Made by a program: the position numbers and the translations under genes. A stretch of DNA of 64,000 bases, taken from NCBI RefSeq assembly GCF_021432065.1, contig NZ_CP090364.1, positions 1,440,601 to 1,504,600 of the forward strand, given 5' to 3'. Under the pieces are notes generated by a model. That model saw nothing but the letters and a program-made list of their open reading frames with translations, was not told the DNA's origin and made no database searches. This document shows positions 9,733-10,729 of the stretch, piece after piece (the first letter of the stretch is position 1; every line of letters starts with the position of its first letter). Origin of the DNA: Photobacterium sp. TLY01. Its GTDB lineage: Bacteria > Pseudomonadota > Gammaproteobacteria > Enterobacterales > Vibrionaceae.

Positions 9733-10347
9733 TTAGTGATGGGCAGTTAAAGCCGATGTTTCAAGCTTTGACAGCAGCTCATTTCGGCGTTGTGGCGTAA
9801 TGACAGACCAGTGTTTACCACTGACTGCACCTTCCAACGCCCAGAGCAGATCCAGACTCAATGACTCGTGATGAGATTCCTGTAACGCTTGGAAAGCACC
9901 AATCGCACCGACTTCGAAGAGCTGATCAACAGAACTGATGCCGGCTTTTTTGAGCATGCGCTCATTGGCCAGGCGAAGGTTGGGCAGATCTTTAATACGA
10001 TTCGGGCTAGCCTGCTGTTTTTTCTCTTTATCTGCCTGAGCAGCATTGAGAGAACGTTCGGCATGTTCCAGGATCACATCAGGGGTTTCCCACCAGTTAT
10101 CCGGGATGGCATAGTGCTTTGTAACGACAGGAAAACCGCGTTTCTGATAAACGTACGGTTTGAGGTCTGCTTGTTTGAAGGCTTCTTCATTTCTCGCATT
10201 AGCGCGTAGATGCAGCTTGTTGTTAACAACAAGGGCGAACATCGTTTCACCTGCGAAAATACCAAACCCGCCAAACATAGAGCGAGATTTTATTTGACCA
10301 AATTTCTCAAATAAACGAATTGAATCTTTCAGTAATGGTTTGTCCAT
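9733..10347 (-). CDS. tfoY: TfoX/TfoY-family regulator
   Basis: 204-residue two-domain protein: TfoX N-terminal domain (RSMFGGFGIFAGETMFALVVNN near 20-40, then KRGFPVVTKHYAI) and TfoX C-terminal helical domain (LPNLRLANERMLKKAGI to ALEGAVSGKHW). In Vibrio the two paralogues TfoX and TfoY act with CRP to control competence, type VI secretion and motility. The protein sequence alone resembles both. I assign TfoY because a c-di-GMP-I riboswitch precedes it, the arrangement of V. cholerae tfoY. ATG 10347 follows GAGAAAAGAAG; a longer frame to 10377 has no ribosome site. The leader is about 130 nt from the riboswitch to the start. Confidence 0.85.
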   Translation of the reverse strand: MDKPLLKDSIRLFEKFGQIKSRSMFGGFGIFAGETMFALVVNNKLHLRANARNEEAFKQADLKPYVYQKRGFPVVTKHYAIPDNWWETPDVILEHAERSLNAAQADKEKKQQASPNRIKDLPNLRLANERMLKKAGISSVDQLFEVGAIGAFQALQESHHESLSLDLLWALEGAVSGKHWSVITPQRRNELLSKLETSALTAHH

Positions 10348-10432
10348 GCTTCTTTTCTCGGCAATTATTTTCAACAAAAGAAGTCACTTAACAAAGGAGC
10401 GAGGATTCAATTATGCATAAGAATATGAATGC

Positions 10433-10452
10433 TTTGTCATAATTATGACAAA
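10433..10452. repeat. Perfect 20-bp palindrome in the tfoY leader
   Basis: TTTGTCATAATTATGACAAA is a perfect palindrome 85 bp upstream of the tfoY start and 25 bp below the riboswitch core. It could be a dimeric repressor operator, or in RNA a hairpin of the expression platform. It has no U-run, so it is not a standard terminator. Confidence 0.55.
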
Positions 10453-10477
10453 AACAGCCTATAATCTTTTACTTCAT

Positions 10478-10580
10478 CCATCGGCAACCCCGCTACCATG
10501 AGTAAAAACTTATTTAGTAATTACTTTTAGGCCGGAAGCTTTGCGTCTCATTCTTTCAAATGGTTTGCCTTGTTCGTGAC
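10478..10580 (-). ncRNA. Cyclic di-GMP-I (GEMM) riboswitch upstream of tfoY
   Basis: Reading leftward, the conserved GEMM-I blocks occur in order: GGCAAACC (10569-10562), a short stem capped by a GAAA tetraloop, GACGCAAAGC (10547-10538), CCGGCCTAA (10535-10527), and GGTAGCGGGGTTGCCGAT ending near 10478. These match the Vibrio Vc2 riboswitch from memory almost base for base. The segment between CCGGCCTAA and GGTAGC is longer than in Vc2 and can form its own AT-rich hairpin. The family binds c-di-GMP. Whether binding turns tfoY on or off is not visible. No intrinsic terminator lies between it and the start codon, so translational control or RNA turnover is more likely. Confidence 0.92.
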
Positions 10581-10729
10581 TGTTTAATCATATATCAATA
10601 AGACTAATTTGATATGGATCGCATAAAAAATTTGTGAGGTAAAACGCAATAAAAATCGTATAAATTTTACAGAATGTGTTGGTTTGTCTCATTAATTCCC
10701 CCATAGCGTAGTAATATTCCATATGCAAA

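Follow-up and report, generated by a model that had tools for sequence, protein, structure and literature searches.

An aptamer that lies more than 100 nt upstream of the start codon it is thought to control raises the question of how its signal reaches the ribosome-binding site. The locus described here was singled out by an earlier note, which had proposed a c-di-GMP-I (GEMM-I) riboswitch with an enlarged P3 loop in front of a TfoX/TfoY-family gene. We analysed it in the context of the window (the whole stretch of 64,000 nt), of its genome and of related Vibrionaceae, and arrived at a concrete model, testable by mutation, of how such a distant aptamer might mask the ribosome-binding site.

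The aptamer and its target gene

The features that define the element are the following.

10480 to 10579, minus strand: c-di-GMP-I (GEMM-I) aptamer, RF01051
10548 to 10563, minus strand: P2 hairpin with GAAA loop, its basal pair C10563/A10548 mismatched and flagged as non-standard by cmscan
10500 to 10528, minus strand: P3b extension, an AT-rich hairpin beyond the UAA/AUGG receptor region, recognised by its fold and by arm-swap covariation
9733 to 10347, minus strand: tfoY, 204 aa, with TfoX_N and TfoX_C domains (Pfam)

Screening of the whole 64-kb window with cmscan returned RF01051 as the sole Rfam match, placed at 10579–10480 on the minus strand with 75.3 bits (E = 5.6e-13; gathering score 35 bits) over the full model (1–87 of 87), which confirms the identity proposed in the earlier note. 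The genome-wide search gave no second RF01051 match, and the element is thus present as a single copy. Its core blocks are complete, including the P2 GAAA loop, GGCAAA and GACGCAAAGC, with the sole non-standard pair located at the base of P2. The aptamer ends 132 nt before the ATG at 10347, in line with the distance of about 130 nt estimated previously.

The assignment of the downstream gene to the TfoX/TfoY family was likewise borne out, with Pfam scores of 96.7 bits for TfoX_N and 102.3 bits for TfoX_C. The protein is 98–99% identical to its counterparts in Photobacterium arenosum, P. salinisoli and P. halotolerans and 92% identical to that of P. galatheae, which places the window in a Photobacterium close to these species, near P. 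halotolerans. As it shares 54–67% identity with riboswitch-linked homologues of other genera, compared to 32% with the second TfoX-family protein of the same genome, the gene is, judged from its protein sequence, an orthologue of the riboswitch-linked tfoY of Vibrio and not of tfoX. A plasmid search with TfoY yielded distant homologues only, which were at most 42% identical among the matches listed.

Matches to RF01051 were found in 259 of 298 Vibrionaceae genomes and in 42 of 53 Photobacterium genomes, the remaining 11 having no match at all (e.g. G037, G052, G064, G093, G101, G107, G121 and G125), and among the loci fetched most elements were followed by a tfoY homologue. Given this wide occurrence before tfoY homologues, and as Vc2 homologues of Vibrio parahaemolyticus and V. 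vulnificus have already been mentioned (PMC6366702), the window element is a further case of a riboswitch already described in Vibrio. The tfoY-linked c-di-GMP riboswitch therefore extends well past that genus, into Photobacterium, Enterovibrio, Grimontia, Veronia and further genera of the family. Binding of c-di-GMP to Vc2 has been reported to limit tfoY translation (PMC7371385, PMC10482370), and control in V. parahaemolyticus and V. cholerae to be translational and not transcriptional (PMC6618264). The parallel to V. cholerae tfoY drawn in the earlier note holds with respect to both aptamer class and orthologous target gene, and we consider it probable that the element is the Photobacterium orthologue of the Vc2/tfoY c-di-GMP-I riboswitch and works as a translational OFF switch; a response to the ligand in this organism is what we infer.

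Two further loci deserve mention. The leader of a tfoX-like gene in Candidatus Enterovibrio escacola (L119) retains riboswitch remnants only, its GGCAAA/GACGCAAA core no longer being intact, a sequence pattern that suggests riboswitch decay in a symbiont. In a Vibrio-group genome (g12, locus L121), a TfoX-family protein with 41% identity to the window TfoY is encoded near a further c-di-GMP-I element with the flank GTCACGACCATAGCAAACC and a short leader.

The P3 insert of the window measures 32 nt and is indeed longer than in Vibrio leaders (17–29 nt), but the enlargement singled out by the earlier note is nothing special: inserts of 25–39 nt occur in the other long-P3 Photobacterium, which make up most of the genus, and similar lengths are found in a Salinivibrio-like genus with GUUUGAACAAGG flanks (33–34 nt) and in other lineages. 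The additional AT-rich hairpin proposed for this segment does fold as such. When pairs were counted inward from the invariant AG:CU (anchored arm-swapping), 66% of cells were paired for cognate arms versus 44% for arms swapped between species, and 0 of 2000 swaps reached the observed value; on this comparative evidence the extension is a real, covarying hairpin and an ordinary one for most of Photobacterium. MAFFT alignment followed by RNAalifold had been tried on the P3b and linker modules and was set aside, as length changes break the alignment and little or no consensus structure was recovered outside the closely related window clade; anchored arm-swapping was used in its place. A separate group of Photobacterium leaders (L032, L036, L041, L042, L043, L048 and L052) has a short P3 insert of 21–23 nt, carries the GUCAC flank two bases nearer to the core and shows AAAAC in place of AAAGC in the aptamer.

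The 5' flank, the platform strand and a predicted switch

Five elements outside or at the edge of the aptamer are relevant for the proposed mechanism.

10568 to 10580, minus strand: aptamer 5' flank GUCACGAACAAGG, proposed switch strand, with conserved GUCA(C/A)G and covariation with 10383–10397
10383 to 10397, minus strand: expression-platform strand CCUUUGUUAAGUGAC, complementary to the aptamer 5' flank
10587 to 10592, minus strand: putative −10 element TATGAT, from which the transcript would start at about 10580–10581, at the GUCAC flank
10349 to 10383, minus strand: ribosome-binding-site hairpin CUUCUUUU/AAAAGAAG predicted by RNAfold, special to the window clade and conserved in its 7 leaders
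10396 to 10404, minus strand: CCUCGCUCC, complementary to the aptamer P3 strand AGCGGGG (10488–10494)

Of 91 tfoY leaders, drawn from about 10 genera, 82 carry the GUCA(C/A)G flank; it is missing from all 23 distinct c-di-GMP-I aptamers of the same family that are not linked to tfoY. These controls were obtained from 35 aptamers by removal of 12 tfoY loci outside the 91, mostly duplicates (L017, L019, L020, L022, L024, L025, L028, L041, L069, L125, L126 and L141). A TAnnnT hexamer lies 5–9 nt upstream of GUCA, mostly at 6–7 nt, in 53 of 71 distinct leaders compared to 23% in shuffles, from which we conclude that the mRNA probably begins with the flank.

The flank has a partner in the expression platform. 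In the window, AGUCAC-G-AACAAGG pairs with CCUUUGUU-AA-GUGACU at −14.2 kcal/mol, and each clade has a corresponding pair: GUCAC faces GUGAC or GUGGC in Photobacterium, Aliivibrio-like and Vibrio leaders, while Enterovibrio, Grimontia and Veronia have GUCAAG/CUUGAC and the Salinivibrio-like genus AACAAGG/CCUUGUU. For 13 clade representatives, the summed duplex energy was −134 with cognate partners versus −111 ± 7.4 with permuted ones (p = 0.002), although some non-cognate duplexes were stronger than cognate ones; over 100 random choices of representatives the median permutation p was 0.0025 and the maximum 0.014. By this measure, flank and platform strand change together across the 13 clades.

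These observations are consistent with the following model. In the absence of c-di-GMP, the leader would pair through its 5' end (10580–10568) with the platform strand (10397–10383), and the resulting helix would enclose aptamer and linker stem in a multibranched structure, leaving the ribosome-binding region more open. Upon binding, c-di-GMP would organise the aptamer and engage the 5' flank there, so that the released platform strand could fold locally and mask the region before the AUG at 10347. That the ligand competes with the platform strand for the flank is, again, what we infer.

To approximate the ligand-bound RNA, the flank and the P1 strand were forced to be single-stranded, and the cost of opening positions −14 to +3 was computed. 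This constraint made the ribosome-binding region costlier to open, as predicted for 82 of 91 leaders, with mean rises of 2.6 kcal/mol in the window clade (7/7) and 3.4 kcal/mol in Vibrio (21/21). Blocking the flank alone in 21 test leaders had an effect of 2.06 kcal/mol versus 0.14 kcal/mol for other 16-nt control segments, and in the four leaders tested from the window clade 0 of 12 control segments reached the effect of the flank. The opposite sign was obtained for two divergent leaders (g13 and g5), while the flank-only effect was absent from the two Enterovibrio/Grimontia leaders tested and weak in some Vibrio. The direction of masking is thus a prediction of minimum-energy folding (RNAfold), which covers neither c-di-GMP nor tertiary contacts nor cotranscriptional folding, and its predicted sign matches published work in which c-di-GMP represses the translation of TfoY (PMC7371385, PMC6618264, PMC10482370). 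RNAfold runs with only P3 enforced did not separate two states and were discarded. The ribosome-binding hairpin of the window clade is predicted for either state, so that switching may be shallow in this clade.

Switching could alternatively proceed through CCUCGCU (10404–10398), which would exchange between AGCGGGG (10494–10488) in the aptamer and, via CUCG, the complementary CGAG near the start codon, with GUCAC/GUGAC serving merely as a static closing helix. This arrangement draws on a seven-pair complementarity that is near-invariant in Photobacterium and appears in unconstrained folds. However, Vibrio-type leaders lack CCUCGCU and use CUCGG, so that it is not a family-wide switch; its partner strand is moreover fixed by the aptamer and unable to covary, and the ribosome-binding site of the window clade is covered by another hairpin. 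We therefore regard this route as unlikely. A broader reading, namely that the tfoY riboswitch works by strand exchange with its own mRNA 5' end, is put forward tentatively, with a chance somewhat below even: a family-wide, covarying GUCAC partner of the platform would be withdrawn by c-di-GMP, and both the paired sequences and the hairpin at the ribosome site would have evolved anew in each genus. The two strands would be separated by a structured linker and, in the majority of genera, by an internal promoter as well.

The linker stem, its palindrome and a possible internal promoter

Between the aptamer and the platform, two nested features were located.

10415 to 10475, minus strand: structured linker stem-loop from the aptamer to the expression platform, identified by folding z-scores and, in Vibrio, by covarying basal pairs
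10433 to 10452, minus strand: exact 20-bp palindrome TTTGTCATAATTATGACAAA at the apical end of the linker stem

The linker folds better than its dinucleotide shuffles, with a mean z of −1.7 in 40 Photobacterium and −2.9 in 23 Vibrio/Aliivibrio-like leaders, and the Vibrio-type basal helix GGCAAA/UUUGCU is paired in 18 of 18 distinct leaders, its sixth pair occurring as five pair types. The palindrome arms TGTCA and TGACA are kept in relatives at a spacing of 5 to about 19 nt, and the outer arms co-vary. The palindrome that the earlier note had placed in the expression platform is exact, but it forms the tip of the linker stem, which is longer, and is not a separate platform element. The claim that the platform has no intrinsic terminator was upheld, with no terminator found in the scan.

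On the 3' side of the linker stem, an extended −10 motif (TGnTAnnnT) occurs in 27/27 other long-P3 Photobacterium and 21/21 Vibrio leaders, and in 74% of all leaders versus 13% in shuffles. Its position fits the internal promoters P3 and P4 reported for V. cholerae tfoY (PMC7371385), but it finds no support for the window itself: all 7 leaders of the window clade lack the motif, which was therefore discarded as an indication of such a promoter in this clade, and the promoter scan of the window stayed at chance level. This bears on the possibility that the palindrome is a protein operator acting on an internal promoter 3' of the aptamer, which would give rise to a riboswitch-free tfoY mRNA as from V. 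cholerae P3/P4. The V. cholerae precedent and the placement of TGACA and the extended −10 motif just ahead of the platform, the latter in all those relatives, speak for it. Yet, beyond the motif missing from the window clade and the chance-level promoter scan of the window, an arm spacing that varies so much is more readily expected of an RNA stem than of a dimer operator, and we find this explanation improbable.

Regulon context and comparison with known riboswitches

The earlier note had also tied the element to type VI secretion, a link that does not carry over to this organism. No match to VipA or VipB was found in its genome (G000, rated 100% complete), so that, on gene content, there is hardly a canonical type VI system for TfoY to drive; VipA is present in six close Photobacterium relatives (G060, G027, G047, G153, G068 and G103). 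The genome contains five Flagellin_N matches and 28 GGDEF matches, a few of the latter being fragments of one gene, and genes for motility and c-di-GMP signalling are accordingly in place. At the base of P2, the 91 leaders have C-G in 81 cases and U-A in 9, the C/A of the window leader being the only exception; from this distribution, C/A is a recent mutation of the window lineage or strain, and it could weaken the aptamer.

Taken together, a P2 mismatch unique among the leaders and the loss of type VI components kept by close relatives might indicate a decaying or weak riboswitch in this strain, with tfoY no longer strongly controlled by c-di-GMP. However, the aptamer still reaches its high RF01051 score with binding-core letters and tfoY frame intact, a single terminal mismatch is mild, and TfoY acts on motility as well in Vibrio (PMC4858559), flagellins being present here; we thus hold decay to be very unlikely. 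The missing type VI system is a matter of the regulon and no defining trait of the riboswitch. The strain looks like a natural case of a riboswitch and TfoY kept after type VI secretion is gone, and could help to tell apart the motility and secretion branches of the TfoY regulon.

In the literature searched, which did not extend to the original work on the expression platform of Vc2, no report of flank–platform pairing or of Photobacterium c-di-GMP riboswitches was found; we do not claim the pairing as new, as it may already have been described for Vc2. The window element resembles Vc2 of V. cholerae in aptamer class, in target gene, in its terminator-less leader of a presumably translational type and in the structured region that spans from aptamer to start codon, and the GUCAC flank with a complementary platform strand is shared with the Vibrio relatives. 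It differs in its longer P3b hairpin, in the platform anti-sequence CCUCGCU, where Vibrio has CUCGG, and in the CUUCUUUU/AAAAGAAG hairpin over the ribosome-binding site, which is confined to the window clade. Other Vibrionaceae c-di-GMP-I aptamers that are not tfoY-linked are alike in their core but differ in lacking the GUCA(C/A)G flank, and no adjoining tfoY homologue was found for them. The closest counterparts are the tfoY riboswitches of P. halotolerans, P. salinisoli, P. arenosum and P. galatheae, which share the same leader architecture and encode TfoY proteins 92–99% identical to that of the window, the latter being set apart by its broken P2 basal pair and one extra linker base.
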